Shown in pieces: positions 8,662 to 50,135 of a stretch of 52,080 nucleotides of DNA (its first letter is position 1; each line of letters starts with the position of its first letter). The DNA is from an uncultured Lachnospiraceae bacterium (GTDB lineage: Bacteria > Bacillota > Clostridia > Lachnospirales > Lachnospiraceae). The notes beneath the pieces are model-generated. The model did no database searches. It saw only the letters and a program-made list of their open reading frames with translations, and was not told where the DNA came from. Location: NCBI GenBank assembly GCA_946405625.1, contig CAMJHQ010000024.1:1-52080 (forward strand). Direction: 5' to 3'. Made by a program: the position numbers and the translations under genes.

Positions 8662-8677
8662 AATCACTCCTAACCAT

Positions 8678-9850: not shown

Positions 9851-9877
9851 CTTCTAATCCTACTATAAAAATCCAAA

Positions 9878-11086: not shown

Positions 11087-11099
11087 CGTTACATTCACC

Positions 11100-12956: not shown

Positions 12957-12966
12957 TTTACTCTCC

Positions 12967-13953
12967 TTATACTTCATGATACGTGTTCCAGCCATCTTCG
13001 CTACTAAACACACCACCTTTATCCATAATGGCATATAAATTAGCCATTTGAGCTTGTTTTTCTATATCAATAAGAATTGTTTTATCATCATCAAAAAACA
13101 ACCGTGTCTGGTAAAACAATCCAGGTTTAAACTCTTTATCCAACTTATCATCTATATTATAATCTACTATACTAACCGTTCCTTTTTCTTGAACTTTTAA
13201 CCGTTCTAATGGTTCAAAAATAAGTTTACGCTTTTTCGTTAAAACTTCTAATGACCAACGACCTGCACTTTCCCAATTTGCTTTATATGAAAACAACACA
13301 CCTTTTGTCGTTTTTCCCGCTCCCGCATATTTACTCGCTTTAGAATGCCATGGTAAACTACCCTCACAAAAACTGCATATCATATTGGGGATCCCACCAA
13401 GATAAAATGCAAGATCAACAACATGTGTAGAATTTGCCAAAAACCATTCTTCTAATTCTCCTGACGGAAAGTTATACTGAGAAATAACATGTCCCCATTC
13501 TGTAAACTCAAAATTAAAAGATGTAACTCCTCCATCTTCTTTTATCAATTCTTGAGCTTTCAGTACAGATGCATAGCATCTTCGATTGTACGCAACATAT
13601 ACATCTGCTTTTTTTTCTTTTGCCAAAAGTGATAATTCTTTCATTTCACATTGTGACATTCCTCCTGGTTTTTCTATCAATAATTTTTTTACTCCTATTT
13701 CAAGTAATCTTTTTGAAACACTAGCTAGATTCAAGGGATTAACAGCAACAATTGCATATTCTGGAATTTGAATACTTTTATTTTTATCTATTCCTCCTCG
13801 AAATACACTTACTCCCGTTTCTTTTTCACATTCGGAAGCTGATTCTTCGCCCCTTCCTATTACTGAAAACCTTTTATCCATCGCCTTCAAAACTTTAATA
13901 TATTCACGCGCCATTCCGCCAGCGCCAATAATCCATATATTATTCTCTTCCAT
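12967..13953 (-). CDS. Gfo/Idh/MocA family sugar oxidoreductase
   Basis: 328 residues. The N-terminal Rossmann fold shows IWIIGAGGMAREYIKVLK (about 5-22) and the family motif EKPGGMS at about 107-113, which holds the catalytic-region lysine. The C-terminal alpha/beta domain follows. These NAD(P)-dependent enzymes oxidise or epimerise sugars or sugar nucleotides. A TTG five codons earlier falls inside the ribosome binding site GAGGTG, so the ATG at 13953 is chosen. It is 10 bases before the amidotransferase. Its substrate cannot be read from the sequence. An extra tailoring step on the nonulosonate or its hexosamine precursor is the likely role. Confidence 0.82.
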   Translation of the reverse strand: MEENNIWIIGAGGMAREYIKVLKAMDKRFSVIGRGEESASECEKETGVSVFRGGIDKNKSIQIPEYAIVAVNPLNLASVSKRLLEIGVKKLLIEKPGGMSQCEMKELSLLAKEKKADVYVAYNRRCYASVLKAQELIKEDGGVTSFNFEFTEWGHVISQYNFPSGELEEWFLANSTHVVDLAFYLGGIPNMICSFCEGSLPWHSKASKYAGAGKTTKGVLFSYKANWESAGRWSLEVLTKKRKLIFEPLERLKVQEKGTVSIVDYNIDDKLDKEFKPGLFYQTRLFFDDDKTILIDIEKQAQMANLYAIMDKGGVFSSEDGWNTYHEV

Positions 13954-16005: not shown

Positions 16006-17073
16006 TCACATAACTTCTAATCTACGTATCATATTTTGCAGCTCATCTCTTTGTCCCATATCCATCCATCTATCTTCAGATATTGGAAACATTCCTAAAT
16101 TATATCTTTTTTCTATGCATACTTTAAATAAATCTGTAATTTGACATATTTCCCCATCTGGAATCAGATTTAAAAATTCTGGACTAAGAACATAAAATCC
16201 AGTATTTACAATTGCCGAAATATCGGGTTTTTCAACAATTGAAGATACTCTCCCCTCTTCATTTGTCTCTATCACCCCATATGATAAGGTAGTATTTTTA
16301 ATAGCCCCTACAATAGTTGCAATATTACAATTTTTTATATGAAAATCCATGATATCAGCATAATCAGCTTCAACCAAAATATCGCAATTAGTCATAAAGA
16401 ATGGCTTGTCATATTTACCTGAAAGCAATTTCAAGCCACCAGCAGTTCCTAAAAAATCTGTTTCATCATAAAACTCAATTTCAGCATCATATTCTAATTC
16501 TTTAAAATATGATTTAATAAAATGCTTTTTGTAGTTTACAATCATATCAAAATGACTACATCCCGCTTTTTTAAACCTATCCATAATATGTTCTGTTATA
16601 GTCTTTTCGCCAATAGGAATAAGCGGCTTGGGTAATACATTTGTATAAGGTGCTAGACGTGTTCCTTTTCCACCTGCCATAATAACAACTGGCGCATTAA
16701 CTTCATGAAACATTGGAGTACGTCTATTCTCCTGAAAACATATATCTATAATAACATTATCTTCAGAAATAATTGGTACTGACCGTACCATTTTCTCACG
16801 CATAATACTAAATGCATTATTCTTTTCAAAAAAATATAACTTTATAGGATTTCTTTTCATTATATCTTTTGCTTTAGCATCTAGGTTATGAGACTTAATA
16901 ATTGATCGTCTAACGTCTCCATCAGTTATTGTCCCCAGTAAATGTTTTTCATCATCACATACGTAAACAATACCTTGTCCGTTTTTCTCAATCTGTTTCA
17001 TTATCTGAATGATTGTCATCTCCGTAGATACAATATATTCATTTATATTCATATTTTTTATAATGTATTTCAC
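16006..17073 (-). CDS. CBS-domain sugar-1-phosphate nucleotidyltransferase (PtmE/LegX-like)
   Basis: 355 residues. Residues about 1-118 are a tandem CBS pair (GTITDGDVRRSIIKS at about 47-61). Residues about 127-355 are a nucleotidyltransferase with MAGGKGTRLAPYTNVLPKPL at 132-151 and the metal-binding TNCDILVEADY at about 228-238. The same fusion in Campylobacter (PtmE) makes GDP-glucosamine for the GDP-linked legionaminic acid route, so this gene suggests a GDP- rather than UDP-linked pathway. The CBS pair may regulate it by nucleotide binding. The start is uncertain: GTG at 17073 has an AGGGGG site about 15 bases away, and an ATG seven codons later has none. Confidence 0.85.
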   Translation of the reverse strand: MKYIIKNMNINEYIVSTEMTIIQIMKQIEKNGQGIVYVCDDEKHLLGTITDGDVRRSIIKSHNLDAKAKDIMKRNPIKLYFFEKNNAFSIMREKMVRSVPIISEDNVIIDICFQENRRTPMFHEVNAPVVIMAGGKGTRLAPYTNVLPKPLIPIGEKTITEHIMDRFKKAGCSHFDMIVNYKKHFIKSYFKELEYDAEIEFYDETDFLGTAGGLKLLSGKYDKPFFMTNCDILVEADYADIMDFHIKNCNIATIVGAIKNTTLSYGVIETNEEGRVSSIVEKPDISAIVNTGFYVLSPEFLNLIPDGEICQITDLFKVCIEKRYNLGMFPISEDRWMDMGQRDELQNMIRRLEVM

Positions 17074-18297: not shown

Positions 18298-19242
18298 TCA
18301 CTCATCGTATTCTTTATTATTAATTATATAATCTTTAACCACATATTGTGGTGAATTGTTTATACTAATATATATCCTTCCGATATATTCACCAATCAAT
18401 CCAAGCATGATCAGAATCATTCCGCCAATTATTAAGAGTAATGAAATAATAGTACTCCAACCTTCGACCTGAGTGATTCCCGATACTCTTCTGACTATCG
18501 TAACAATAGCATATATAAAACCGGCCAAAGCCAGGATAAATCCAAGGAATGCACTAAACTCAAGCGGTTTTACCGAAAATGCCGTAAATCCGTTGATCCA
18601 TAAAGAAAGCAGCTTAAACGGAGAATAACCCGAAACTCCTTCCAATCTCTTTCTATGATTTGTGGGAACGCTGGCTATATTCCTGGTTGTTCTGAGAATA
18701 AGACCTCCCATATAAGGGAATGCATTCTTATATTTTACTATCTCATCAATTATATATTTTCTGGCTATAAAGAAACTGCTTCCCTTTACATCTTTTGGTT
18801 CATGGAGCATAATCTCCGCCATTCTTTTAGCCATCCAGGTACCGAATTTTCGAAATGCTGTCTGCTTAATAACTCTGTAATAAGCATATACAACATCATA
18901 TCCTTCTTCTATCTTGGCTATCAGTTCGCCAAGTGAATCAAGCGGCGTCTGTCCGTCATCATCCAATGAAACAACAAAATCACCCGAACATCTGGCATAA
19001 CCTGCCAAGAGCGCTGAATGCTGTCCGAAGTTTCTTGCAAGATTAATTCCAATTCTGTTATCTTCCTCGGAAACAAGCTTTTTGATTACACTCCAAACAT
19101 TGTCAGGCGAACAGTCATTCACCATAACAATCTCGTAGGTATCCCCTTTTCTGCGAGACATTTCGGATTTAATCTCTGCAACAACCTTGGGAAGCGTATT
19201 TTCCGATCTATAACAAGGAATTACAAAAGAATATTTTGCCAT
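18298..19242 (-). CDS. GtrB/DPM1-like membrane glycosyltransferase (GT2)
   Basis: 314 residues. The GT2 domain opens with YSFVIPCYRSENTLPKVV and has the metal- and sugar-binding DDDGQ at 94-98. Two C-terminal membrane helices lie at about 230-252 and 262-285, followed by GEYIGRIYISINNSP, a pattern typical of GtrB, ArnC and CsbB. These enzymes attach a sugar to undecaprenyl phosphate, for use by a GT-C partner outside the membrane. Such partners could be the DUF2142-like or YfhO-like proteins of this window. It starts within the stop codon of the ketosynthase gene (TAATG), so the two are translationally coupled. Its composition is close to that of the acyl module. Confidence 0.9.
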   Translation of the reverse strand: MAKYSFVIPCYRSENTLPKVVAEIKSEMSRRKGDTYEIVMVNDCSPDNVWSVIKKLVSEEDNRIGINLARNFGQHSALLAGYARCSGDFVVSLDDDGQTPLDSLGELIAKIEEGYDVVYAYYRVIKQTAFRKFGTWMAKRMAEIMLHEPKDVKGSSFFIARKYIIDEIVKYKNAFPYMGGLILRTTRNIASVPTNHRKRLEGVSGYSPFKLLSLWINGFTAFSVKPLEFSAFLGFILALAGFIYAIVTIVRRVSGITQVEGWSTIISLLLIIGGMILIMLGLIGEYIGRIYISINNSPQYVVKDYIINNKEYDE

Positions 19243-20333
19243 TAGTGTTCCACGAATCCTTCCTTATAATAATCATCTGTACATTCGACAGAGTATATAT
19301 TCGTCGTATCTATAGTCACTGAAGCACATGCCCATGACAGTCCCACACCAAATCCGTAAAGGAAGAGTTTTTGTTCTCCCGACTCGTCGTGAAATGCATC
19401 ACAAAGTGTAAGCGGAATAGAGCAAACACTCGTATTTCCGTATCTATCAAGCGATATTTTCATTTTTTCTTTATCTGCACCAATCTTTTTGATCAAATGT
19501 TTAAGAATAAAAAGATTCGGTTGATGGAATATATATGCATCAAATTCATTCGGATCATATTCATACTTATCCATAAATTCCTTGGCTAGTTTCGGAACAT
19601 CTGTCATAGAAAAGCTGAAAACATCCATACCATTCATATACAAGTCATAATCCGATCTTGTATTACCATCTGACCATTCAGTTCTTTCTCTTGAAGCATC
19701 CACATTCCTGTATGCTCCTGCAGGAACTATAATCGATTTAAATCTGGAACCATCGGATTTCATTCCAATCCGTATCAGATTCGTCTCATCGCCAGACGGA
19801 GAATCAAGCTTCTCAATAAGAGTTGCCGTTCCTCCATCACCAAATATCATTCTGGATTTATCAAAAGGAGAAACGACCTTACTGGTTATATCTCCTGTTA
19901 GAAGTAATCCTCTCTTCGCACTTGACGAATTAAGGATAGACCCCATAGTCTGTAATCCATATATATATCCTGAACAACCAAGATTATTATCAAATACGAT
20001 ACAGTCAGTAGAAAGTCCCAATCTCTTTTGTAGAACACATGCAGTAGGCGGAACCTGATAATCCAGATAAGCCGCTGTGAAAATTAGTATATCAATAGAT
20101 TCCGGATCTATATTCATCTCATCCATCAAACGTTTTGCAGCAACATATGCAAGGTCTGATGATGTCTGCTCTTTAGATGCATGATGAGATTCCTTCACTC
20201 CGGTCGTTGCTATATTTTTTGAAACAGTATCCTCTCCGAAGAGTTCATCATACTCATGAGCATTTACTACTTTAGTTGGAACAGCTGCTGCGATTCCTGA
20301 TATTTTTATGTTATTAAATTCTGCCGAAATCAT
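19242..20333 (-). CDS. FabH-like ketoacyl-ACP synthase III, copy 1
   Basis: 363 residues, a full KAS III thiolase fold. The catalytic triad is intact: Cys120 in NLGCSG, His270 in FHQPN and Asn300 in YGNTS. It would condense an acyl-CoA starter with a malonyl-type unit on ACP, or transfer an acyl group. The NLGCS nucleophile context differs from the housekeeping FabH AACAG. It is seen in KAS III genes of surface-glycan loci, for example FabH2 in the Campylobacter flagellin-glycosylation locus. It overlaps the transketolase C-terminal subunit by 20 bases. It is a paralogue of the gene at 27110. Confidence 0.9.
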   Translation of the reverse strand: MISAEFNNIKISGIAAAVPTKVVNAHEYDELFGEDTVSKNIATTGVKESHHASKEQTSSDLAYVAAKRLMDEMNIDPESIDILIFTAAYLDYQVPPTACVLQKRLGLSTDCIVFDNNLGCSGYIYGLQTMGSILNSSSAKRGLLLTGDITSKVVSPFDKSRMIFGDGGTATLIEKLDSPSGDETNLIRIGMKSDGSRFKSIIVPAGAYRNVDASRERTEWSDGNTRSDYDLYMNGMDVFSFSMTDVPKLAKEFMDKYEYDPNEFDAYIFHQPNLFILKHLIKKIGADKEKMKISLDRYGNTSVCSIPLTLCDAFHDESGEQKLFLYGFGVGLSWACASVTIDTTNIYSVECTDDYYKEGFVEH

Positions 20334-21288
20334 TCAGAACCCTCTCTTTAATCTTCGCAGCCGATAGTCCGGCCTGATCTAACATATAAGAATAATCACC
20401 ATCTTTAAAGTATTTATCTTCAACGCCGATAATACTATGAACCGGTCTCTTCAATCTATTGGAATAGTATTCACTGATTGCACTTCCCAATCCACCGGAT
20501 ATATAATGTTCTTCTACAGATGCAACAAACTTGAATCTGTCTGCTATTTCATTCAAACATTCCACATCCAGAGGCTTTAACGTATGTGCATCATAGACCT
20601 CACAGGATAAACCTTCCTTTTCAATAAGTCTTGCTGCACGGACAGCTTCGTTAATAACAGCTCCTGTGGCAACTATACATATATCATATCCTTCTTTTAT
20701 CTTATTAAACTTTCCGAGTTTAAAATCATAATCATCTTTATAAATATTCGGTATTCCCGGTGTTCCTGTAAGCCTAAGATATGCCGGTCCGTTATAATCC
20801 ACCAGATGCTCTATACACTTGGCTGTTTCCACGCAATCAGCCGGTGAAAGGATAGTCATCCCAGGTATAGTTCTCATAAGCGCTATATCCTCCAACGCAT
20901 AATGAGTATTTCCCTGTGAGCCTAACGAGAAGCCACTTGCAAGTGCAACTACCTTCACATTTAAATGCATATATCCGACAAGAGTTCTGATAGCTTCAAA
21001 CGGTCGAAGTGAAGCAAATGGAGCAAAAGATGTAACGAATACGTTCTTTCCTTCAAGCGCCATACCCGATGCCATCGCAACCATATTCTGTTCGGATATT
21101 CCTGCATTAAAGAATCTGTCACTATGATTCTTCATATAATCCTCTAATCCCGCAGAGCTTCCGACATCGGCTGCAATCATATAAAAATCCTTAGAATCAT
21201 CTGCCACTTCATTAAGTATATTTCCAAACAGTTTTCTCTGGCCAAGTCTCGACCACTGTATTAATTTTTTCTTTTCATATTCAATCAT
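20314..21288 (-). CDS. Transketolase-like protein, C-terminal (Pyr/C) subunit
   Basis: 324 residues. It corresponds to the pyrimidine-binding and C-terminal domains of transketolase. The conserved glutamate that activates thiamine diphosphate is Glu66 in NAGISEQNMVAMASGMA, and the phosphate and substrate loop FAPFASLRPFEAIR follows. Together with the upstream subunit it should form a split, heteromeric transketolase of the kind often found in secondary-metabolite and sugar loci. It would transfer a two-carbon ketol group to an aldehyde acceptor. It starts within two bases of the N-subunit's stop and is followed by the ketosynthase with a 20-base overlap. Confidence 0.9.
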   Translation of the reverse strand: MIEYEKKKLIQWSRLGQRKLFGNILNEVADDSKDFYMIAADVGSSAGLEDYMKNHSDRFFNAGISEQNMVAMASGMALEGKNVFVTSFAPFASLRPFEAIRTLVGYMHLNVKVVALASGFSLGSQGNTHYALEDIALMRTIPGMTILSPADCVETAKCIEHLVDYNGPAYLRLTGTPGIPNIYKDDYDFKLGKFNKIKEGYDICIVATGAVINEAVRAARLIEKEGLSCEVYDAHTLKPLDVECLNEIADRFKFVASVEEHYISGGLGSAISEYYSNRLKRPVHSIIGVEDKYFKDGDYSYMLDQAGLSAAKIKERVLNDFGRI

Positions 21289-21289
21289 A

Positions 21290-22063
21290 TTATTTTAGTT
21301 CCTGAATATATCCGTTATACTCATCCTCAGTTATTCTCATGTGATGAATGCCTGATTTTCCTTCTATTGATGCTATTCCTTTACCTTTTACAGTATGAGC
21401 TATTATTGCTGTAGGATGCCCCTCCAAAAAACCATTCAAAGCATCTTCTATTTCAGTGTAATCATGTCCATCTACATGCTTTACATGCCAACCAAAATCC
21501 TCAAAAACCTTTCCGATATCTTTTATAGGCATTATGTCATTCGTATATCCGTCCAGCTGTTGACCATTAACATCAACTATGACTGTAATATTATCTAAAC
21601 CAAGTTTTGATGCCGTCATAGCTCCTTCCCATATACTTCCCTCGTTACACTCCCCGTCTCCGACAAGAACATATATATGAGAATCAGCACCATTCTGTTT
21701 TCTTATCAATGCAATCCCCGATGCAATAGATATTCCATATCCGAGACTTCCTCCGGATATATCTATGCCGTTCTCACTATCCTTTATTTCATGAGTTGTA
21801 AGCGAACTGCCGGAATCTTCAAAGGTGAGTAGTTTTTCCTTAGGAAAGTAACCGCATTCAGCCAAAACAGCATAATGAGCAAGTGCAACATGGCCCTTAC
21901 TTAAAATAAATCTATCTCCATCTTTCATGACCTTTCCATACAAAACCGCAAGGATATCCGCTGCCGAAAACGCCCCGCCGATATGTCCTCCGTTTGCACC
22001 TGCATGAAGAGTCATATCAAGCACATCTTTTCTTATATTATATGCAAGTTCTTTCACATCCAT
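21290..22063 (-). CDS. Transketolase-like protein, N-terminal (PP) subunit
   Basis: 257 residues from the chosen start. The thiamine diphosphate motif is GDGECN (135-140) through VDVNGQQLDG. The substrate-binding histidines are visible in NGGHIGG (about 27), SKGH (58) and KSGIHHMR near the end. This is the first half of transketolase, and the second half is the next gene. The frame extends to 22090, but that start has no ribosome binding site. The ATG at 22063 has GGAGG about 14 bases upstream, a rather long spacing. Either way the start lies inside the end of the SDR gene (ending 22038), which suggests translational coupling. Confidence 0.88.
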   Translation of the reverse strand: MDVKELAYNIRKDVLDMTLHAGANGGHIGGAFSAADILAVLYGKVMKDGDRFILSKGHVALAHYAVLAECGYFPKEKLLTFEDSGSSLTTHEIKDSENGIDISGGSLGYGISIASGIALIRKQNGADSHIYVLVGDGECNEGSIWEGAMTASKLGLDNITVIVDVNGQQLDGYTNDIMPIKDIGKVFEDFGWHVKHVDGHDYTEIEDALNGFLEGHPTAIIAHTVKGKGIASIEGKSGIHHMRITEDEYNGYIQELK

Positions 22064-22814
22064 ACTTCGAACTATATCCTCCGCCATCAACTATCAGCGT
22101 CTGTCCGCTGATATAGCTTGCCTCTTCGCTCCCAAGGAAGTAAACCGTATTTGCAATTTCCGATGGTTCACCCATTCTCCTAGCAACCAGTCTTTCTTTG
22201 AGACCTTCTCTCATCGAGTCTTCCATCTGCATGATCATTTCAGTATTGATCATACCCGGAGCCACTGCATTTACACGAATTCCGTAGGCCGCCAGCTCCT
22301 TTGAGAGTTTCTTCGTCATTCCGACTATTGCGGACTTTCCCGAAACATATTCGAATTGTCCTTCTATCCCTGTAAATGCGGCAATTGATGCCATATTTAC
22401 AATCGAACCTTTTCTGTTTCTAATCATCGCTCTGCAGACAATCTGTGTAATCTCAGTCTGTGCAAAGAAATTGACATCAAATGACTCTCTCACCTGATTC
22501 ATATCCGTCATAAGAAATGCCTTACTCGGAAGTACCACTCCCGCATTATTGACCAGCACATCAATCTTCTTATGAACAGATAACGCTTCCTTCAGAGCCG
22601 CCTTCATCTCTTCGGAATTTTTCAGATCAAAATATACCGGAACTACCTCAATAGATGGATTTTCACTCTTCAGATTTTCGATATCCCGCAAGAAATCTTC
22701 ACTTTCTTTCCTTGCATGTGCAAGGATTGTTACGGAATCTTCCTTCGCAAATCTTTCAAGAATCGCTTTTCCTATTCCTCTGTTTGTGCCGGTGATCAGT
22801 ACTGTTCTTCCCAT
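22038..22814 (-). CDS. SDR oxidoreductase, FabG-like, copy 1
   Basis: 258 residues, a classical short-chain dehydrogenase/reductase. The cofactor loop is TGTNRGIGKA (8-17), the NNAG motif is in VLVNNAGVVLP, and the catalytic Ser and YxxxK lie in NMASIAAF and FEYVSGKSAI. The end shows NAVAPGMINTEMI and the GQTLIVDGG motif. Proteins like this reduce 3-ketoacyl-ACP, so it may reduce the ketosynthase product, but SDRs acting on small ketones or sugars look alike. It lies between LuxC and the transketolase N-subunit, whose start it overlaps. Confidence 0.88.
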   Translation of the reverse strand: MGRTVLITGTNRGIGKAILERFAKEDSVTILAHARKESEDFLRDIENLKSENPSIEVVPVYFDLKNSEEMKAALKEALSVHKKIDVLVNNAGVVLPSKAFLMTDMNQVRESFDVNFFAQTEITQIVCRAMIRNRKGSIVNMASIAAFTGIEGQFEYVSGKSAIVGMTKKLSKELAAYGIRVNAVAPGMINTEMIMQMEDSMREGLKERLVARRMGEPSEIANTVYFLGSEEASYISGQTLIVDGGGYSSKYGCERTCI

Positions 22815-22857
22815 TTATACTTACCTTCTCATTTGCCGTAGCATTTAATTAATATGA

Positions 22858-24033
22858 CTAGCTCAGACTTACAATTCTTGATAAGCTTCTCACCAGATCA
22901 TAGCCATCCCATATAACACCTATATCCAGCGATTTTCCGACAGGTACTATTCTGTCGATACCTCTCAGATTATTATCGATCACATTTTTTCTTAACTCTT
23001 CCGCGTCAAGGCCAAAATATATAAGCGTCTGATACTTCTCGGTAATAATATCATTGATATCCGATATATCATTTATAGCCATCTCATGAAAATATCCGCT
23101 CTTACCACGAAGCTCTGTGATATCTTCCTTAGTATTCTTAATTTCTATCCTGTAAAGCAGATTATCCTTATTCTTATAATCCGCTATTCTTTCCTTATTC
23201 TCAATAGCTTCCTGACAAAGATTGGTATACTTATCAACAGCGACTGCATCCTGAAGATAATATCTGTCCTTTGCCAGATCATAAACAGCATTCCAGAATC
23301 GTTCTCGCGCTTCTGCATTGTCATTAACCCAGAATATCATCTGTGGACTTGAACAGGCATTCTGATCCATAAGATATGTATCATTATAGAAGTCTTCCGC
23401 AAGCTTCTTTATCACTGTTTCGTCAGCCTTCAGAACTGCCTCTGCGTCGATCATGCATATCGAATATCTGTCAGCAAAGGTTATATCCACACATCTCGGT
23501 TTTGCCCCAAGCTTCTTTATATTCTCGACTGTTCTGTCACCGCCCCAGATCATTCTGGCATCGGCGAGCTTTGAATACTCTGATGTAATCTCATCATCTG
23601 CCGAATATCTTATAAATGCAGTCCTCTTCTCTATCTCAGGATGCTTTTCCAGAACCGCTCTTATAACATCAAGTATAAGGTCTGTCTGAGGGAAGCTCCT
23701 GCTCGGAAGTCTTACGATATTTGCACACCCGGCCAGAACTCCGAACATATATGTAAACGCAAAATTCACAGGTATATTTCCCGGAGACACATGAAATACC
23801 AGACCTCGTCCGAGTCTCTTACTTACATCTCCGAAGCTTTCCTTAAGCTTCTCTATATTTCCCCGTCTGCACCAGAACGCAAAGGCCACTGCATCAGGAA
23901 ACTGCCTTATTCCGGGTGTCTTAAGGATAGCTTGAGACAAGTCATTGGCAAATGACAGTGCCTCATCCGAATAAACCTTCATAGGCGCATTTACGATATT
24001 TTCATTTCCTATTATGTAACTAACGTTTTTCAT
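22858..24033 (-). CDS. LuxC-like acyl reductase
   Basis: 391 residues from the chosen start. LuxC is the fatty-acid reductase that takes an acyl group from LuxE and reduces it with NADPH to an aldehyde. Visible are HVSPGNIPVN (81-90), the ALDH-like fold pattern, and the nucleophile Cys227 in LMDQNACSSPQ, a strong LuxC signature. It is shorter than luminous LuxC (about 480), mostly at the N-terminus. A longer frame upstream overlaps luxE by 143 bases and is unlikely. The ATG at 24033 overlaps the luxE stop by 14 bases, with AGGGGG upstream. No luciferase genes are present, so the aldehyde serves another purpose. Confidence 0.88.
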   Translation of the reverse strand: MKNVSYIIGNENIVNAPMKVYSDEALSFANDLSQAILKTPGIRQFPDAVAFAFWCRRGNIEKLKESFGDVSKRLGRGLVFHVSPGNIPVNFAFTYMFGVLAGCANIVRLPSRSFPQTDLILDVIRAVLEKHPEIEKRTAFIRYSADDEITSEYSKLADARMIWGGDRTVENIKKLGAKPRCVDITFADRYSICMIDAEAVLKADETVIKKLAEDFYNDTYLMDQNACSSPQMIFWVNDNAEARERFWNAVYDLAKDRYYLQDAVAVDKYTNLCQEAIENKERIADYKNKDNLLYRIEIKNTKEDITELRGKSGYFHEMAINDISDINDIITEKYQTLIYFGLDAEELRKNVIDNNLRGIDRIVPVGKSLDIGVIWDGYDLVRSLSRIVSLS

Positions 24034-25099
24034 AGGTATCGCTGCACCCCCTAAGTTCTGCTCCCTTAATTCTTCCGAATATCTTAAAATACTTTCCGCA
24101 TCTTCCGCATGGACAATCATCCTCTCCAAGGACGACACCCTCATCTTCTGTAAGTAGTGCATGCCCCGGATAGCTGGTCGGAAGAAGTGATATAAGCTCT
24201 ATAAGTCCCTTTTCACCTATTTCAGCATCAGAAAAGTCATAAGAACGTCTAATGTGGACATCTGAATAATTCGAGCAGTGCATATGTCCATATTCACACT
24301 CAACGAAAACAGAGCCGAGCTGCTCTGCCATACCATAATAATTATGGACTTCAACATTACCACCCAGGACCTTACTCAGTCTCTCATTATATTCCAGAGT
24401 ATCCACAGCCTGATCCTTAAGTTTCTTCCATCCACCTATATGGAAAACTATTGCTTTTTCAAAAGGAAATGAGATCCCCTTATCCTCAAGTACACGTATT
24501 ACATACTGCCATATCATATAGGTATAGCCAAACATAAGAACGGCCTCCCCCTTATGCTTATCACAAAATGCGGAAACCTTATCTATATCTATATCCATAT
24601 TTTCATCCAGCGCATATTCGGTTCCTCGACCAAATGTCGTAAAACCTATTATACCCGCTCCACGTGCAGAAAACATTGACCTGTCCTTCTTGACCATCTC
24701 TGTATCAAGCAGAAGGAGTGGAAGTCTCTGTTTTCCGATATAAGAAGAAATGATAGCTGCCAGAGTCTTTGTCTGACTTCTCACATTTTCCTTATCAAGA
24801 AATATCTTCGAAACCTTCTGTCCGGAGGTTCCCGAAGAGGTCATCGTTTTAACTATCTCTTCCTTAGGAACACTCCTAAGTTCATATTCCTTAAAAAGTC
24901 TTACCGGAATATACGGAACATCCGAAGTACTCTTAATACCGTCTATATCAGTTCCGAGCACACGAAGAATAGCACTATACTCGTCACAATTCTCGGCATG
25001 TTTACGAGTAAGAGCTTTAAGTCCATCAAGAAGAAGTTTTTCCTTCTCTTCTTTTTTTAGACCATATGGATCTATGTCATATAATTCATCAAGTGTCAT
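24020..25099 (-). CDS. LuxE-like acyl-protein synthetase
   Basis: 359 residues, the usual length of LuxE. It activates a carboxylic acid as acyl-AMP and carries the acyl group on to LuxC. The adenylate-forming P-loop reads TMTSSGTSGQKVSK (85-98), and the C-terminal part has a cysteine-rich stretch (CPCGRCGKYFKIFGRIKGAE) resembling PaaK/LuxE. It might also load an ACP. It precedes luxC with a 14-base overlap, so the two act as a unit. The gene starts with GAGGG eight bases upstream of the ATG and is 55 bases after the acetyltransferase. Confidence 0.9.
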   Translation of the reverse strand: MTLDELYDIDPYGLKKEEKEKLLLDGLKALTRKHAENCDEYSAILRVLGTDIDGIKSTSDVPYIPVRLFKEYELRSVPKEEIVKTMTSSGTSGQKVSKIFLDKENVRSQTKTLAAIISSYIGKQRLPLLLLDTEMVKKDRSMFSARGAGIIGFTTFGRGTEYALDENMDIDIDKVSAFCDKHKGEAVLMFGYTYMIWQYVIRVLEDKGISFPFEKAIVFHIGGWKKLKDQAVDTLEYNERLSKVLGGNVEVHNYYGMAEQLGSVFVECEYGHMHCSNYSDVHIRRSYDFSDAEIGEKGLIELISLLPTSYPGHALLTEDEGVVLGEDDCPCGRCGKYFKIFGRIKGAELRGCSDTYEKR

Positions 25100-25154
25100 A
25101 TTCGCCCTCTAAGCTAAGCACTAGTGCACTCAAAACATCAAATTAGTTATCTTC

Positions 25155-25817
25155 TCAAGCTTCTTTGATATATATATCCCTCGGCTCTGAAAAAATCGCA
25201 CCGAGTCCCGAATATATATTCATAACTGCCATATTCCTTGAACTGATTCGTCCCGTCAGACGTCTCTTTCCCATTTCCACCGCCTTCTTTACAGCAAATG
25301 CATATAAAGACATTGCGACTCCCGGAAGCCTGACCGACTGGTCTATCGCAGCAAGATGTATATCAGCTGTCTTATCATCTATATCCTCAATATCTATAAA
25401 ACCGAGCACATCGCCCTTATATCTGCATATAAAAACATTGCTGAGTTTATCCACCCATTCACTGAGTATCGTACGTGCGAGCTGCTCATCAGGAAGACAC
25501 AGGATATTAAATCGTCTGTCATAACCAAATGCAGCAACCGCTATTTCGAGAATTCTGCTCTTTTCAGAACTTCCATCTTCAACATCAAATCTGATAAGCT
25601 TTTCCATATCAGTCTGCACTTTCGTCAGATTGATCGTAACGCCGATTGTTCTGTCTCCGAGAATATATCCTCGCTCTGTCATCACTTTAGCGAATGCTAC
25701 ATCCGACTGAAGCTCGGCTCTGACATTTTTTCCCATGTCACCTTTTATCTCATCAGGCGTTTCAGCTGAAATATATAAAAAATCAGTATTATTATATACT
25801 TTAATCTCTTCCTGCAT
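25155..25817 (-). CDS. GNAT-family acyltransferase
   Basis: 220 residues. The C-terminal half has a GNAT-like course: GFIDIEDIDDKTADIHLAAID, then VAMSLYAFAVKKAVEMGKRRLTGRI and NMAVMNIYSGLGAIFSEPRDIYIK, where the last part is the usual beta-bulge plus substrate lid. The N-terminal half is less conserved. It probably transfers an acyl group from CoA or ACP to an amine, perhaps on a sugar. A clear AGGAG site precedes the ATG. It lies between the acyl carrier protein and LuxE, so it may use the acyl group made by this module. That is an inference. Confidence 0.72.
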   Translation of the reverse strand: MQEEIKVYNNTDFLYISAETPDEIKGDMGKNVRAELQSDVAFAKVMTERGYILGDRTIGVTINLTKVQTDMEKLIRFDVEDGSSEKSRILEIAVAAFGYDRRFNILCLPDEQLARTILSEWVDKLSNVFICRYKGDVLGFIDIEDIDDKTADIHLAAIDQSVRLPGVAMSLYAFAVKKAVEMGKRRLTGRISSRNMAVMNIYSGLGAIFSEPRDIYIKEA

Positions 25818-25849
25818 TCAGACTCCTGTTATCAGATTCACAATCTTTA

Positions 25850-26086
25850 CTAGATTTCTACTTCATACTTCTTCAGTATTTCCTTACCCTTCTCGAAAGA
25901 ATCAAAGGTAATGATATCATCAGTATCAAGGACTATGTCGAATGCATCCTCGATAGCTGCAACAAGCGTCATATGACCTACTGAATCCCACTCCGGAACT
26001 CCCTGGAATGCAAGTCCTTCAACCTGATCCTCATCGATTCCGAGGCCTTCAACAAATGCATTAATATATAATTCAAGGTTTGTCAT
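25850..26086 (-). CDS. Acyl carrier protein, copy 1
   Basis: 78 residues, acidic, typical ACP size. The phosphopantetheine attachment serine is Ser35 in PEWDSVGHMTLV, a form common in dedicated (non-FabD) carrier proteins of glycan and secondary-metabolite loci. Helix 2 and the C-terminal FEKGKEILKKY follow. It should carry the acyl intermediate through ketosynthase, SDR and acyltransferase. AAGGAG lies nine bases before the ATG. It is 39 bases after the other ACP gene, and the pair may serve different enzymes. Confidence 0.93.
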   Translation of the reverse strand: MTNLELYINAFVEGLGIDEDQVEGLAFQGVPEWDSVGHMTLVAAIEDAFDIVLDTDDIITFDSFEKGKEILKKYEVEI

Positions 26087-26125
26087 GATAAAAATCTCCT
26101 TAATTAAATTCGAATAAATATACTT

Positions 26126-26344
26126 TTATTCCATCATATCAAGAATGTCCTGAACAGTCTCAAGAGCCTTGATATCATCGCTCTTAATAGTCTTTCCGAA
26201 CTCATCATCCATGAGTACGATAAGTGAAAGCTTTGCAATCGAATCAAACTCATCTATATCTGCAAGCTCCATATCAGGCTCAAGTGAACCCTCATCCATA
26301 TCAAATGTCTCCTCAAGAAGCGCTAATTTTTCCTCTGTTGTCAT
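26126..26344 (-). CDS. Acyl carrier protein, copy 2
   Basis: 72 residues from the chosen start. The carrier serine is Ser35 in DEFDSIAKLSLIVLMDDEFG, slightly different from the canonical DSL. The frame starts earlier (26365), but that ATG overlaps the GAGAGGAG site, so the ATG nine bases after it is preferred. The sequence is clearly divergent from the neighbouring ACP. Holo-form requires a phosphopantetheinyl transferase, and none is in the window. It is 23 bases after the SDR gene. Confidence 0.9.
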   Translation of the reverse strand: MTTEEKLALLEETFDMDEGSLEPDMELADIDEFDSIAKLSLIVLMDDEFGKTIKSDDIKALETVQDILDMME

Positions 26345-26367
26345 AGTGTAAATCTCCTCTCTCATTA

Positions 26368-27117
26368 TTATGACAGCGCGCCGCCGTCATATATAAATGT
26401 ACTGCCTGTTATAAACTTTGCCGCATCGGAAAGCATATAACAGATTGCATTACCTGCATAATCTACCGGAATTACTCCGAGATACTGCTCTCTGAGCAGT
26501 TCTTCGTTATTTCCTCCGGACTCCAGGAAGCCCTTATACATATCTGTCTCAACCATTCCGAATGCAATAGTGTTAACTCTTATATTCTTTGCTGCCAGCT
26601 CCTTTGCATAAGGATGTACAACCGCATTCATAGCACTCTTTGCAGCGGAATATGCTCCCTGTGTCTTATTACCATGTATTGAGGCTACTGAGGATATTCC
26701 CAGATAGCTTGCTCCTTCATTGGAATTTTTTCTTGCAGATGCAGCTCTTATCAGTTCTGAAAATGCAAGAAAATGTATCTTCAGATTATCCATCAGAAAG
26801 TCCGGCTTTGTAAGCTTGACCGGTCTGTTAAGTCCGATTCCCGCAGCATGAACAAGACCGTCAAGTGGTCCGTCCTTCAGAACAATTTCCTTCACCAGAT
26901 CCTGAATACCTTCTGTATCATTCAGATCATATATATAGAAGCTATGTCCATCTCCCTCGAGAAGTCCGATGGTTTCCTTAAGCTTATCTTCACTTCTTGC
27001 TATAAGACTGATCTTAGCTCCAAGTTTGCTTGTCTGAACTGCAGCCGACCTTCCTATTCCTGCCGAGCCGCCTGTAATAAGTATATGTTTTCCCGATAAA
27101 TCCATAGGATTAATCAT
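26368..27117 (-). CDS. SDR oxidoreductase, FabG-like, copy 2
   Basis: 249 residues. The cofactor loop is TGGSAGIGRSA (14-24), followed by the LVHAAGIG segment. The catalytic region is SVASIHGNKTQGAYSAAKSAM with Tyr and Lys of YxxxK in place, and the C-terminal ITGSTFIYDGGALS is typical of FabG-like enzymes. It overlaps the ketosynthase by eight bases, so it may reduce its 3-keto product to a 3-hydroxyacyl-ACP. GGGGGAG is six bases before the ATG. It is only distantly related to the SDR at 22038. Confidence 0.9.
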   Translation of the reverse strand: MINPMDLSGKHILITGGSAGIGRSAAVQTSKLGAKISLIARSEDKLKETIGLLEGDGHSFYIYDLNDTEGIQDLVKEIVLKDGPLDGLVHAAGIGLNRPVKLTKPDFLMDNLKIHFLAFSELIRAASARKNSNEGASYLGISSVASIHGNKTQGAYSAAKSAMNAVVHPYAKELAAKNIRVNTIAFGMVETDMYKGFLESGGNNEELLREQYLGVIPVDYAGNAICYMLSDAAKFITGSTFIYDGGALS

Positions 27118-28189
27118 GGCTTACTCCCCCATCTTTAAAATAATCATCGGTATATATTATCGGGAAGATATCCTTCTTCTGTATCTCAGTATAAACAACT
27201 CCCCATGATAGTCCGATACCGAATCCGCACATCAATTCCCTTGAGGTGCCTTCAGTTTCATCATTTCCGTATATATCACATAATGTAAGCGGAATAGATG
27301 CACCGCTTGTATTGCCGAATCTATCTATTGTTTCCGGAATCTTATCCATCGGAATCTTGGTCTTCTTGGATATCTGCTTAAACATCATACGGTTTGCCTG
27401 ATGAAGTACAAGATGATCAAATTCTTCGATACCATTATCGGCAACAAACTTCTTAATAAGCTTCGGAACCTGAGAAATAGAGAACACAAAAACATCTGTT
27501 CCGTTTATATATCCATCATAATCAGATCTGATATTTCCGTCTCCCCACACCGTTCTCTCATGACTGCCGTTTCTGTTCCTGTATCCACCCGAAGGCATGA
27601 TTATTGACTTAAATCCTTCTCCGTCAGTCATCAATTCACCGATGATCGATGCACCTTCACTCTTGACCAAAAGAGTGGCTGAGCCCGCATCACCAAACAG
27701 CATATGCTCGGATTTATCCTCCGGTGAATTTGTCTTAGTACAGGTATCACCATTGAGTAGGAGTGCCTTTTCTATATTCAGGCTGTTCATCATCGCACCT
27801 GCAATATTTATACCATATACAAATGCCGAGCATCCCAGATTAACATCAAATGCAAGACAATTCTTCTCAAGGCCGAGTCTTTTATGAAGAACGCATGCTG
27901 TAGCAGGAAGCCTGTAATCAGGCGTCTGCGAAACAAAAACCAGAAGTCCTATCGAGGACTTATCTATCCCCTTCTTCTGAATGACATCTTCAGCTGCCAC
28001 ATAACAGAGATCCGATGCTGTCTGCTCTTCAGGAGTTCTGTATGAAGATTCAACTCCTGTAGTCTCTATAAAGCTGTCAACATACTCCTGTCCAAACTTA
28101 TCATAAAAATCCTTCGTCAGAACCTTATTATCCGGAACTGCACATGATATACCGTTTATTGCTATATTTTCCAGTCTGAACTCTGCCAT
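27110..28189 (-). CDS. FabH-like ketoacyl-ACP synthase III, copy 2
   Basis: 359 residues. The catalytic residues are Cys120 in NLGCSA, His263 in LHQAN and Asn293 in FGNTS, so it is intact. It is colinear with the copy at 19242 over nearly the whole length (same spacing around Cys120), indicating an old duplication. The difference in the starter pocket region suggests different substrates. It is coupled to the SDR behind it by an eight-base overlap and lies seven bases after the GNAT gene. Confidence 0.92.
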   Translation of the reverse strand: MAEFRLENIAINGISCAVPDNKVLTKDFYDKFGQEYVDSFIETTGVESSYRTPEEQTASDLCYVAAEDVIQKKGIDKSSIGLLVFVSQTPDYRLPATACVLHKRLGLEKNCLAFDVNLGCSAFVYGINIAGAMMNSLNIEKALLLNGDTCTKTNSPEDKSEHMLFGDAGSATLLVKSEGASIIGELMTDGEGFKSIIMPSGGYRNRNGSHERTVWGDGNIRSDYDGYINGTDVFVFSISQVPKLIKKFVADNGIEEFDHLVLHQANRMMFKQISKKTKIPMDKIPETIDRFGNTSGASIPLTLCDIYGNDETEGTSRELMCGFGIGLSWGVVYTEIQKKDIFPIIYTDDYFKDGGVSHD

Positions 28190-28195
28190 CCGTAT

Positions 28196-28762
28196 CTATT
28201 CTCCCTGAGTTTTCATCTTCATGTCGTACATTTTATCGATCATTTTCCTGATCTTCTGCACAGTACCGTTCTCTTCGGCGATATTCTGCTCAAAGTAGAG
28301 AGCTCTATGGGTTCCTCTCATCTCATCCCTCATATATATACCGCCTCTTTTAATCGCATCACTTATATGCTTGGGATTATTATCATATATTACATAGCAT
28401 GTCCTGCTTATGCCAAGCACTTCAATACAAAACTTATTCATCAGAAAGCCGACTTCCAAAGTTTCCATAGGTTCGCCTATGTTGACCTCTCTTCCGACCT
28501 CTGCTATATCCGTCCTAATATCATAAACACCTATAAGGCCGATTCTCTCACCCTTCTTATTAAGTACCACAAAATAATAATCATCCGGCTTCTGCATCTG
28601 ATTTTCAATATATCTTCTCTGAGCATCTACAGACTCTGCAAGCTGACCAACCGTATCCTTATTTCTCTTATCTGCTCTGATATTATATGAAAACTCTGCA
28701 TCTTCCGGAGTGATACTTCTGAGATCTACAAATTTTCCAACAATAACCTTATCGTATACCAT
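28196..28762 (-). CDS. GNAT-family acetyltransferase (RimJ/RimL type)
   Basis: 188 residues. It resembles the RimJ/RimL/SpeG group: the opening KFVDLRSITPEDAEF, YYFVVLNKKGERIGLIGVYDI, the central VNIGEPMETLEVGFLMNKF, and VIYDNNPKHISDAIKRGG, where the acetyl-CoA loop and the substrate lid are expected. It is the first gene of the long minus-strand run, about 140 bases from the divergent YfhO gene. It could N-acylate an amino sugar with a group delivered by the acyl module. The target is not visible in the sequence. Confidence 0.8.
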   Translation of the reverse strand: MVYDKVIVGKFVDLRSITPEDAEFSYNIRADKRNKDTVGQLAESVDAQRRYIENQMQKPDDYYFVVLNKKGERIGLIGVYDIRTDIAEVGREVNIGEPMETLEVGFLMNKFCIEVLGISRTCYVIYDNNPKHISDAIKRGGIYMRDEMRGTHRALYFEQNIAEENGTVQKIRKMIDKMYDMKMKTQGE

Positions 28763-28902: not shown

Positions 28903-31900
28903 ATGCTAAACATTAAAAAAATCAATATTCCAAAAAGATTAATATACATTTTATCTTTTATAATTCCGTTCATTACTGTTATAGTCGGCCTGATTGCCGG
29001 CGGCTTTGCCCCCTTCGGTTCCAAAAATCTTCTGACAGCCGGCGGCTATGACAAGATAGTCCCTTTCTTTCATGAGTTTTACGACAGATTCCATTCAGGA
29101 ACATTATTTCAGTATAGTACAAGAGTCGGTCTCGGTTATGATTTTACAACTGTAATTACCTATTACTTATCAGATCCGACCAACTTTATCGTACTTCTTT
29201 TCCCAAAAACTGCTATGCTTGCCGTACTCAACCTGATCTTTGCCGTTAAAGTCGGCGCTTCAGGCCTTTTTATGGTGCTCTTCTTCTCTTATCGTTCAAA
29301 GATAAGAAAAATAGAATCCAATCCTTTTATGATCATTGCATTATCGTCAGCTTATGCACTTTCATCATATATGATGAGTTACGGAATAAATCTTTCTTAT
29401 ACCTCTGCCATAGCTCTATTCCCTCTTATTATGATGGGAATAGATAAGATATTCTATGAAAAAAAGTGGATTACCTATGCTGTAAGTATTACTCTTGCAA
29501 TATATTTCAATTTCTATATATCTATGATCATATTTACATTTTCAATAATCTATCTCTTTATTCTCGAATATAAGGATACGTCTCACTGTATTTCTACTTT
29601 ATTACATAAATTACTTAGTGACGTTCTCGCCTTTGGCGCGTCATTTATAATCATATATAATACCGTAACAAGCTCATTCTTTAAGGCCGATATAAATACC
29701 GGTTTCTATGGTCATGGTATGTACTCGAGTTTCTGGAACACTGTAAAAATGGGACTTACCCGTTCTCTTCCATATCAATTGACTGTTGATTCCAACGGTG
29801 TAAATATATTTGTCGGAACCCTGGGACTTATGGTCATACTACCATTCTTAATGAACAAAGGCCTGAAATTATCCTATAGAGTTAAAAATCTTCTACTCTT
29901 AAGTTTACTGATTATCGCCTGCTATTCAATTACATCAAATTATTTCTTTAATTTTTTCTACCTTAACATTGAAGATAAGGCCTTCTTTGGGTTTATAATA
30001 TGCTTCCTTCTTATAAGTATATGCTTTGATACACTTGCCAAGATAGATTATGTAAGACAGCGCTATATAGGTATTTCTTTCATCATTTCCGCTGCAATTG
30101 TCATAATGTCCATGCTTTTCTGTACAGGTTATGACACTATGACACCATTTATTACCTCACTTGAATTTCTGCTGTTCTACCTTTTAGCAATACTTGTTTA
30201 TAAACAGAAGAATATCTCCGGAGAGATATTTCATATACTTATATGTCTTCTTCTTGTATTCGAGCTGATATCAAATTCTTTTATATCATTGAAAGCACTT
30301 GGTAACCGATCCGAAGCATATGAACAGTCAACCACCTGCACAATCAACAGAGGAATTGACTATATTCATACTGTAGATCCTGAATCACGTGTATTTGTAT
30401 ATGATCATATCAATTCGACTTCTACTCCTATGTCTAATATGATAAATGGTTATGATTATATAATTGCTCAGAAGGATGTGGATATGGATTCATATCTTCA
30501 ACTAATGGACAATATCAATGACTACTCTATATATAAAAACCCATATAGTTTTTCCAAGGGTGTATGTATAAGTAAAAATCCCGACGACTATACATATAAT
30601 CCATCCTATCCTTATACAAGTGCTAACATTCTTGCAGAGGATGTTTTTGGTTCAGGTACTCTTTTTTCAGAGATTTCCGGAGGAGTTGCTAAAAGTATAG
30701 ATCCGTATACCGGAAAAACAATACTGGTTTTCAATGTCGATGAAACCGGTGAGATATATTCCAACTTAATCAGGAAAACTCTTCACTTTACGGCTGATTC
30801 AACTGACGAAAGTTATATAATTCCTCTCGACGAATCCCTACTCACCAAACGCGAAAGATATTTTTCGGGAGAAATAAAGAAGCTAAATATTGACTCCCTG
30901 GATTCAATCTACAATGAATATAAGAATAAAGATGCATATTCTTTCAATGATTCAACTGTATTTAGAATCCTTCCAATCTCCGACTTCACAAAATGGAGTA
31001 CCGATAACGGCACCATCTCTCGAGTAAATATATCGGGAGATGACCTTGTATGCCTTAAAACTGACAATAATTCTGCTTTCAATCTTACCTTTGCTCCTAA
31101 CCACCTATATGTGGGTGCTATCGTAAGTCTTATTTCGCTGCTCATTTTTGTGGCTGTTACGCTTGTAACAAAGAAAACAAAAAACACAGAGCAGACTGAT
31201 AATAAATTATATAAATTCGTTGACCGACATAAAGATCCTATATTAGTATTTATTATTTCATCAGTGGGATTTATTGCAATACTTATGTACACATGCTGTG
31301 TTCCTTTCGGTCAGAAATCCTTTGTCTCATCCGATGGATTTGTTCAGGGATATCCCTTGAACACGTACCTATTCGGAAAGCTTTATAATAATGATTTATC
31401 ATTACTTAATTATCAAATCGGATTCGGAATCGATAATTTTGTGCTTTTCTTCTCATCTCTCGTTCAGCCTTTTACTTGGATAATGTATATATTCAAAATA
31501 CCGATTAATATTTTCACAATGAATCTCTGTATCTATTCAAACTTTATACTGGTATTTTTATTTATGTATTTATACCTTACCAAAAGGCCATCTGCCAAGA
31601 CGCGTCCATTAAGCAGACTGACTATATATACTTGCGTTATTGCTTATTCATTATCAACATATATTATTGCCTATTTCCCTCTATTCCAGGGAATACCTTA
31701 TCTTCTTCCTTTAGTTCTTCTGGTAACAGAGAATCTATTATATAGAAAAAAGGTGTTACCATATATTTTGGTAATGGCATACTTAATGATGCAACAAAAT
31801 TACAGTGCATTCCTCGTATGTGAATTCCTCGTTCTCTTCTTCTTTATTAGTGATTTTGAGAGCATTAAGGATTTCTTCATGAAGGGCTTCCGTTTTGCCC

Positions 31901-42550: not shown

Positions 42551-42572
42551 ATTACGCTTTCACCTCACATCA

Positions 42573-43199: not shown

Positions 43200-43211
43200 A
43201 AATAATCTCCT

Positions 43212-47039: not shown

Positions 47040-47041
47040 AA

Positions 47042-48979: not shown

Positions 48980-49007
48980 AACACGCCACCTCTGTGAATA
49001 CTTGTCT

Positions 49008-50132: not shown

Positions 50133-50135
50133 TAA

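Follow-up and report, generated by a model that had tools for sequence, protein, structure and literature searches.

We analysed a 52,080-nucleotide stretch of the genome of an uncultured Lachnospiraceae bacterium (assembly GCA_946405625.1, contig CAMJHQ010000024.1, positions 1 to 52,080; hereafter, the window), in which genes for an acyl carrier protein (ACP), an AMP-dependent ligase, the acyl-protein synthetase LuxE and the acyl reductase LuxC share one strand with a split transketolase. The closest described relatives of this cassette are found in flagellin glycosylation islands. In the parts of the report on 98 Aeromonas strains drawn on here, ACP, 3-oxoacyl-ACP reductase, AMP-dependent synthetase, luxE and luxC are placed in the flagellin islands, are followed in nearly all strains by the family 2 glycosyltransferase (GT2) gene fgi-1, and are read as genes of fatty acid synthesis (PMC7874193); the excerpted account of Enterobacteriaceae has the five gene types in the flagellin glycosylation islands of 71-80 strains (PMC4875605). 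Judged by these descriptions, the Aeromonas Group II islands have the ACP, reductase, ligase, luxE, luxC and GT2 in common with the window, the pseudaminic acid genes being on the Aeromonas side, and the Enterobacteriaceae islands share the ACP, reductase, ligase, luxE and luxC. All five core types lie on one strand of the window, with nonulosonic acid (NulO) genes in the locus. Beyond both kinds of island, the window encodes the two transketolase halves (TktN and TktC), 3-ketoacyl-ACP synthases III (KAS III) and an N-acyltransferase (GNAT2). No PF00669 flagellin match is present in its genome (97.8% complete), and flagellin was rejected as the target in this organism. The word 'transketolase' occurs in the main text of neither report, and no paper was found that joins LuxE, LuxC, transketolase, polysaccharide and ketoacyl. 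Two further papers on flagellin glycosylation (PMC5109656 and PMC13317340) contain none of the terms sought. Thus, the cassette of ACP, ligase, LuxE and LuxC is already known, so that the claim of a new module, made in a first-pass annotation of this DNA, was too strong for the core; what is added here is the transketolase-bearing variant.

Another described relative is the tetronate pathway of Vibrio cholerae O1, the product of which is an N-linked 2,4-dihydroxybutyryl group; we take its five genes to be those of an ACP, a ligase, an iron alcohol dehydrogenase, LuxC/LuxE and an acyltransferase. Compared by descriptions, V. cholerae O1 would handle the aldehyde with the iron alcohol dehydrogenase, whereas the window has a short-chain dehydrogenase/reductase (SDR2) and the transketolase; no iron alcohol dehydrogenase was found among the scanned window proteins, which are a subset of the total. 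As far as the excerpted account goes, the five genes (VC0248-VC0252) are assigned to the perosamine N-acyl group, and wbeL (471 aa) is required for the O antigen (PMC3441752). The ketol step has a precedent in azinomycin biosynthesis, where, according to the sections cited, the AziC5/C6 pair adds a two-carbon unit to glutamate semialdehyde and the carboxyl is kept (PMC9570651). The likeness to AziC4-AziC6 (and vazabitide) lies in this addition by a transketolase pair to a carboxyl-bearing semialdehyde; in azinomycin, however, the aldehyde arises via a kinase and a phosphate reductase and the product is an antibiotic, whereas the window aldehyde would come from LuxE/LuxC. The scanned window proteins include no glutamate kinase of the AziC/vazabitide type.

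Composition and conservation of the cassette

The gene content reported in the first-pass annotation was confirmed: LuxE, LuxC, two KAS III with intact triads, two ACPs, two SDRs, two GNAT-family N-acyltransferases and a split transketolase are all present in a unidirectional run. The 13 named genes lie on the minus strand, from 28762 down to 18298, and the same-strand run extends to 885, where the ligase (Lig) is encoded:

28196..28762, minus: GNAT1, Acetyltransf_3 family N-acyltransferase (PF13302, E = 6e-7), first gene of the run
27110..28189, minus: KS1, KAS III with Cys-His-Asn triad (PF08541/PF08545)
26368..27117, minus: SDR1, FabG-like reductase adjoining KS1 (PF13561, E = 6e-40)
26126..26365, minus: ACP1 (PF00550, E = 5e-6)
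25850..26086, minus: ACP2, carrier protein of the LuxE/LuxC cassette (weak NCBIfam ACP match)
25155..25817, minus: GNAT2, WecD-like by predicted fold (PF00583)
24020..25099, minus: LuxE, acyl-protein synthetase (PF04443, E = 8e-56)
22858..24162, minus: LuxC, acyl reductase (PF05893, E = 2e-29)
22038..22814, minus: SDR2, FabG-like reductase tied to the transketolase (Pfam)
21290..22090, minus: TktN, thiamine diphosphate half of the cassette transketolase (PF00456, E = 3e-33)
20314..21288, minus: TktC, pyrimidine/C-terminal half of the transketolase (PF02779/PF02780)
19242..20333, minus: KS2, second KAS III with Cys-His-Asn triad (PF08541/PF08545)
18298..19242, minus: GT2 of the ArnC/PgfS type, polyprenyl-phosphate sugar synthase-like (PF00535; PRK10714, E = 2e-50, under the cut-off)
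885..2297, minus: Lig, AMP-dependent ligase (PF00501, E = 1e-33), far end of the same-strand run

Pfam backs every named gene except ACP2, which has a weak NCBIfam ACP match (E = 3e-4) and a legible DSV phosphopantetheine motif. The triads of KS1 and KS2 are read, respectively, in NLGCSA and NLGCSG (Cys), LHQAN and FHQPN (His), and GNTSG and GNTSV (Asn). Gene overlaps, likewise reported earlier, amount to 8 bp for KS1/SDR1, 53 bp for SDR2/TktN and 20 bp for TktC/KS2; the 143-bp overlap of LuxC and LuxE probably reflects an over-long start call for LuxC. The interval annotated in the first pass omitted the NulO genes and the ligase, a core cassette member in other loci, where it adjoins LuxE/LuxC. 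The closest paralogue of Lig in its own genome is 29% identical.

Conservation was assessed in four sets of loci. A LuxC search of 397 Lachnospiraceae genomes gave matches, many of them weak, in 74, and 49 loci around the stronger ones were taken. The LuxE-scan set, from a scan of contigs with a LuxE alignment, consists of the best 80 of at least 578 confirmed stretches, ranked by LuxE similarity. Among 398 Pseudomonadota genomes, 24 have a LuxE match, and 22 loci were counted, with the two weakest (G655 and G699) left out and one (L117) coming from the genome around which that sample was drawn; among 398 Bacillota genomes, six match including the window's own, and the five others were counted. 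Cassette counts refer to 3.5 kb, 7-kb counts to the 77 LuxE-scan loci with a called LuxE, and some counts to whole loci. All co-occurrence counts are lower bounds, owing to contig ends and short open reading frames, and the sets share loci, which are not independent of one another (the TktC of L070 and L151 are identical, those of L076 and L122 nearly so, and L117 belongs to two sets).

The conserved core consists of ACP2, ligase, LuxE and LuxC, often with SDR2. Ligase, LuxE and LuxC occur together in 26 of the 49 Lachnospiraceae loci (including L032, with distant LuxE and LuxC), in 74 of the 80 LuxE-scan loci and in 19 of the 22 Pseudomonadota loci. Within 7 kb of LuxE, the ligase was found in 72 of 77 loci, LuxC in 71, SDR2 in 53 and ACP2 in 52 (same strand), and the transketolase in 39, GNAT2 in 22 and KAS III in 20. 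The C-terminal Cys352 of LuxE is invariant in a 16-row alignment.

The transketolase accompanies a part of these cassettes. In Lachnospiraceae, it lies within 3.5 kb on the same strand in 7 of the 26 full cassettes, all seven of which also have SDR2, compared with 0 of the 23 LuxC loci that lack the full cassette (Fisher p = 0.011; the 23 include L069, with a cassette-type LuxC cut by the contig end). Of the 74 LuxE-scan cassettes, 38 have the transketolase, often interleaved among the cassette genes, 54 have SDR2, and 35 have both. The transketolase is present in 4 of the 19 Pseudomonadota cassettes and in none of the five loci of other Bacillota. Where it occurs in the LuxE scan, SDR2 is nearly always nearby (36 of 39 loci at 7 kb, 35 of 38 at 3.5 kb). 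The co-occurrence anticipated in the first pass is therefore borne out across several phyla for LuxC, LuxE, the split transketolase and ACP; for KAS III, it is not general.

KAS III is enriched with the transketolase variant, being found in 19 of 38 transketolase-bearing versus 3 of 36 transketolase-lacking LuxE-scan cassettes (whole loci, Fisher p = 0.0001, with non-independent loci) and, within 7 kb, in 16 of 39 versus 4 of 38 (p = 0.004). It occurs in only 1 of 7 Lachnospiraceae and 0 of 4 Pseudomonadota transketolase loci. A role as universal cassette part, considered for KAS III, was ruled out by the 20 of 77 count; the enrichment keeps a KAS III route alive. It seems likely that KS1, SDR1 and ACP1 make a second, separate 3-hydroxyacyl group, plausibly for a second N-acyl position.

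Other LuxC loci are frequent in Lachnospiraceae. In 22 of them (L031, L033-L051, L053 and L054), nearly all with LuxE, there are no transketolase matches, and two (L031 and L051) have a ligase-like match.

Clade and substrate contacts of the cassette transketolase

The window's genome contains three PF02779 genes: the window TktC, a 325-aa split copy elsewhere and a 652-aa open frame. We take the split copy to be the housekeeping enzyme and the 652-aa frame, by length alone, to be DXS-like. In a midpoint-rooted tree, 55 of the 66 TktC-type rows are of the cassette type and form one branch (support 93/96, narrowly below the program's thresholds of 95 and 80), separate from the split copies, including that of the same genome, and from the TK/DXS-like references. 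The hosts include Bacillota, Bacteroidota, Pseudomonadota, Spirochaetota, Synergistota, Melainabacteria and Thermodesulfobacteriota; this subfamily, whose carriers are mostly animal-associated and belong to at least six phyla, was probably spread by horizontal transfer.

Residue equivalence (Escherichia coli numbering) was taken from sequence alignment, with the genome's other split copy as the reference for TktC. The equivalents of His461, Asp469 and Arg520 are each kept in 0 of 55 cassette-type TktC (L056, L070 and L151 excluded from this count), whereas Glu411 is kept in all 55, His473 in 54 and Arg358 in 39. The window TktC follows this pattern, lacking H461, D469 and R520 and keeping E411 and H473, whereas the other split copy of the same genome retains His461, Asp469 and Arg520. 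In TktN, the Arg91 equivalent is absent from 54 of 54 proteins, including that of the window, and is Lys in 11; His26, His66 and His261 are kept wherever aligned, Asn185 is found in every aligned row, and His100 varies. Compared with canonical transketolase (EC 2.2.1.1), Glu411 and the thiamine diphosphate site are thus in place and the three substrate contacts are gone. The two-chain transketolase of Carboxydothermus hydrogenoformans (6yaj; PMC7661550), the best PDB match of TktC (E = 2e-63), is split like the window enzyme but, by alignment, retains the His, Asp and Arg contacts lost in the cassette enzymes.

The lost residues are those that, in the published passages available, bear on acceptor choice. 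His461 of E. coli transketolase has been linked to phosphate binding; H461S and R520V perform better on glycolaldehyde and on propionaldehyde, and D469T/A on propionaldehyde (PMC3657141). Substrate walking toward unphosphorylated aldehydes yielded S385Y/D469T/R520Q, and the account that reports it also describes an Arg91-Asp469 salt bridge (PMC5073344, as excerpted). The cassette enzymes appear to be a natural transketolase clade without three residues that engineers altered singly for unphosphorylated aldehydes. Because the sugar-phosphate contacts are lost, the acceptor would be an unphosphorylated aldehyde, such as LuxC would supply.

Scored with the cassette profile (up to five candidates per genome), 12 TktC in the 397 Lachnospiraceae genomes reach at least 408 bits, the next best scoring 367. 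Eight of the 12, those of the window and of the seven training loci, are cassette members and score high by construction; of the four independent ones, two (in L237 and L239) share a contig with a cassette LuxC, at distances of 17 and 28 kb, and the TktC at 28 kb adjoins flagellin and NulO genes. In L238 (9171-10990), a cassette-type TktN-TktC pair is part of a cluster without LuxE/LuxC matches, beside uncharacterised genes. In L240 (9989-12540), SDR2, TktN and TktC form a unit that stands by itself, and the genome in question has a full cassette too (L052).

Possible chemistry and competing explanations

We give roughly even chances to a reading in which a NulO pathway of the legionaminic type is joined to a carrier-protein cassette that makes a polyhydroxyacyl substituent for the sugar by way of an aldehyde and a two-carbon ketol. 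By family membership, LuxE would activate a small acid with ATP and hand the acyl group to LuxC, which would reduce it to an aldehyde; TktN/TktC would extend this aldehyde, which is unphosphorylated, by a two-carbon ketol unit, in keeping with the lost sugar-phosphate contacts; and SDR2 would reduce the new ketone or, where the transketolase is absent, the aldehyde directly. The ligase could then charge the remaining carboxyl onto ACP2, from which GNAT2 would move the acyl group to a sugar amino group, here probably that of the NulO or its precursor. The starting acid would most likely be a C4 diacid, malate or succinate, with one carboxyl reduced. By arithmetic, the predicted acyl residue is 146.058 Da from succinate and 162.053 Da from malate; if the scheme is right, the malate-derived acyl is isobaric with hexose and the succinate-derived one with deoxyhexose, so that existing glycan spectra may hide it. 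The aldehyde and ketol chemistry that was the central idea of the first-pass annotation thus comes through the co-occurrence comparison and gains, from the dedicated clade and its residue losses, support at the residue level; as an interpretation of the whole, it is partly supported.

The coupling to a surface glycan, also proposed in the first pass, is supported in the window, where the neighbours are surface-sugar genes and the GNAT2 model (pLDDT 93.8) has as its best Foldseek match the amino-sugar acyltransferase WecD (2fs5, E = 9e-13, TM-score 0.72), which outranks several GNATs that do not act on sugars. The best solved relative of GNAT2 by sequence profile is streptothricin acetyltransferase (E = 1e-8). 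A broader proposition, for which the chances fall somewhat short of even, is that the transketolase subfamily as a whole serves surface-glycan assembly and not sugar-phosphate metabolism, extending LuxC aldehydes by two carbons into C6 polyhydroxyacyl groups on amino sugars. If true, this would add a C-C bond-forming route to the decoration of surface sugars, along with a source of biocatalysts.

Several observations weigh against the scheme. The acid substrate and the order of the ligase and LuxE steps are guesses, and no biochemistry was found in the literature for any cassette member. About 23.5 kb separate Lig from ACP2 in the window. In E. coli transketolase, stacking of such single mutations often abolished function (PMC3657141). 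H461, D469 and R520 are also missing from the TktC of L056, L070 and L151, which stand 5-6 kb from a cassette and do not belong to the clade, and therefore the loss is a sign of changed specificity and no unique mark. Two cassette-type transketolases, in L238 and L240, have no LuxE/LuxC partners. Nor is the transketolase-less cassette glycan-specific, as it neighbours 4-hydroxybutyryl-CoA-dehydratase-like genes in 8 of the 26 Lachnospiraceae loci and in 2 of the 5 loci of other Bacillota. NeuB, NeuA or LegG matches accompany 7 of 26 Lachnospiraceae, 11 of 74 LuxE-scan, 7 of 19 Pseudomonadota and 2 of 5 Bacillota cassettes; NulO genes are near only 7 of 49 transketolase-bearing cassettes (2/7, 5/38 and 0/4, with L117 counted twice), and, within 7 kb of LuxE, NeuB was found in 0 of 39 transketolase-bearing versus 6 of 38 transketolase-lacking loci. 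With NulO genes near a minority only, a NulO acceptor is not general, and the sugar may vary. Within 7 kb of LuxE, DegT aminotransferases (LegC matches) occur in 18 of 77 loci and NeuD-type acyltransferases in 11, an indication that other amino sugars may be involved too.

The main competing explanation, which we regard as fairly unlikely, is that no ketol extension takes place: the LuxE/LuxC cassette would form a small hydroxyacyl group, as we propose for Aeromonas and as in V. cholerae O1, and TktN, TktC and SDR2 would be a separate unit for, say, a deoxy- or branched-sugar precursor. The SDR2-TktN-TktC unit is indeed tight and can be found by itself (L240) or at 17-28 kb from LuxC (L237, L239), and many cassettes have no transketolase at a distance of up to 3.5 kb (Lachnospiraceae, 19 of 26; LuxE scan, 36 of 74; Pseudomonadota, 15 of 19); however, in 38 of the 74 LuxE-scan loci the transketolase is within this distance, often between cassette genes, and the loss of phosphate contacts argues for an unphosphorylated acceptor that LuxC could provide. 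The original version of the ketol idea was a short polyketide route, in which KS1 and SDR1 would form 3-hydroxybutyryl-ACP, LuxE/LuxC 3-hydroxybutanal, and the transketolase a 4,6-dideoxyhexulose-like product. This version is improbable: although KAS III and transketolase co-occur in the LuxE scan (19/38 versus 3/36, and 16/39 versus 4/38 at 7 kb), KAS III is missing from half of the transketolase loci of that scan, from 6 of the 7 in Lachnospiraceae and from all 4 in Pseudomonadota. Moreover, a ligase is within 7 kb of LuxE in 72 of 77 loci, and the product would lack a carboxyl on which the ligase, ACP2 and GNAT2 could act.

A lipid route, in which LuxE/LuxC act on fatty acids to give a liposugar, appears very improbable. 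It follows the Aeromonas and Enterobacteriaceae authors, who, in the parts cited, annotate these as fatty acid genes (PMC7874193, PMC4875605). Against it, the scanned window proteins include no chain-elongation set; LuxE and LuxC reach only 62.5 of the 550 bits and 42 of the 750 bits, respectively, that are the cut-offs for the bioluminescence equivalogs; and the glycan of Aeromonas AH-3 is described with units of 376.14 and 102 Da and, in that description, no fatty acyl (PMC7874193). The bioluminescence LuxC-LuxE complex (7xc6) belongs to the same two families but is distant (E = 3e-16 and 2e-6). As stated in the first pass, no luciferase, FabZ or FabI family member was found among the scanned window proteins. 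With no luciferase or elongation genes in that set and LuxC/LuxE this distant, both light production and long-chain synthesis were judged unlikely.

The scheme with a small acid in place of a fatty acid also bears on the Aeromonas masses. The cassette-bearing A. piscicola AH-3 has a 376.14 Da pseudaminic acid derivative and an unexplained 102 Da unit, as described in the sections cited (PMC7874193). Pse5Ac7Ac, reported for A. caviae Sch3N, has a mass of 316.127 Da, and replacement of one acetyl by dihydroxybutyryl (C4H6O3, 102.032) gives, by arithmetic, 376.148 Da. Sch3N is described as having no glycosyltransferase genes between its pse genes (PMC7874193, in part), and the Group I description suggests that the strain is without the lux cassette. 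Both AH-3 masses would fit a tetronate-type group from a malate-fed, transketolase-less cassette, which suggests a candidate assignment for these two unexplained flagellin masses; an O-methylglyceryl isomer fits equally well, and a review, as excerpted, holds that the AH-3 lateral-flagellin derivative is probably phosphorylated. The 403 Da glycan of A. hydrophila AH-1 is not accounted for by this mass argument. Under the small-acid scheme, the 'fatty acid synthesis' genes of glycan loci would gain a concrete role in making small acyl substituents.

Neighbouring genes and other genomic settings

The remaining features around the run are largely those of a glycan locus:

5883..11795, minus: NulO core, comprising NeuC/LegG, NeuB/LegI, NeuD/LegH, LegC, a LegB-like dehydratase and a cytidylyltransferase (NCBIfam/Pfam)
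11799..13034, minus: WbuX-family N-acetyl sugar amidotransferase (TIGR03573, over the cut-off)
16006..17073, minus: CBS and sugar-nucleotidyltransferase domains (PF00483, PF00571), presumably PtmE-like
28903..33906, plus: YfhO-family membrane protein, divergent, upstream of the run (PF09586, E = 7e-130)

NCBIfam cut-offs are exceeded by NeuC, NeuB, NeuD, LegC and WbuX; the cytidylyltransferase is just below the PseF cut-off, and the LegB-like dehydratase is a Polysacc_synt_2 match. The label 'legionaminic' is a tentative one, based on LegC and the gene set, with NeuB and NeuC matching sialic acid models. The type of the GT2 and the YfhO-family protein, a possible partner of it, are consistent with a polyprenyl-phosphate sugar step.

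Some Pseudomonadota loci with pse-like genes, such as L199, L204 and L205, contain ACP2, SDR2, Lig, LuxE and LuxC and no transketolase; L205 shows the gene order of Aeromonas Group II. In five others (L208, L209 and L211-L213), an iron alcohol dehydrogenase is located beside LuxE, and in four of these, a LuxE-LuxC fusion (about 820 aa) is followed by the ligase, L208 being cut by the contig end; two proteins from these loci were checked by Pfam. The arrangement resembles what we take to be the rfbM-rfbN order of V. cholerae O1. This exchange of enzymes fits a division of labour in which LuxC makes the aldehyde and a different enzyme finishes it.

In nine loci (L055, L064, L065, L073, L075, L078, L079, L216 and L217), ACP2, ligase, LuxE and LuxC are near HpaB/4-hydroxybutyryl-CoA-dehydratase-like, CoA transferase or butyrate-type genes, in some cases with a metallo-beta-lactamase-fold hydrolase, and NulO gene matches number zero. 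For these butyrate-type loci, reduction of succinate to the semialdehyde by the cassette is one possible role, but L055, by reading, also seems to encode part of a CoA-dependent semialdehyde dehydrogenase.

Three further features of the window lie outside the cassette. A 365-aa protein at 17148-18242, without a Pfam or NCBIfam match, reads like a polysialyltransferase-type glycosyltransferase and has a 36% relative in L058. Type IV pilus-like genes (PilM/PilN and a prepilin with an N-methylation motif) occupy 41576-51773, beside the glycan locus, and are adjoined on the same strand by a gene for a 2197-aa secreted-looking protein (34963-41556).

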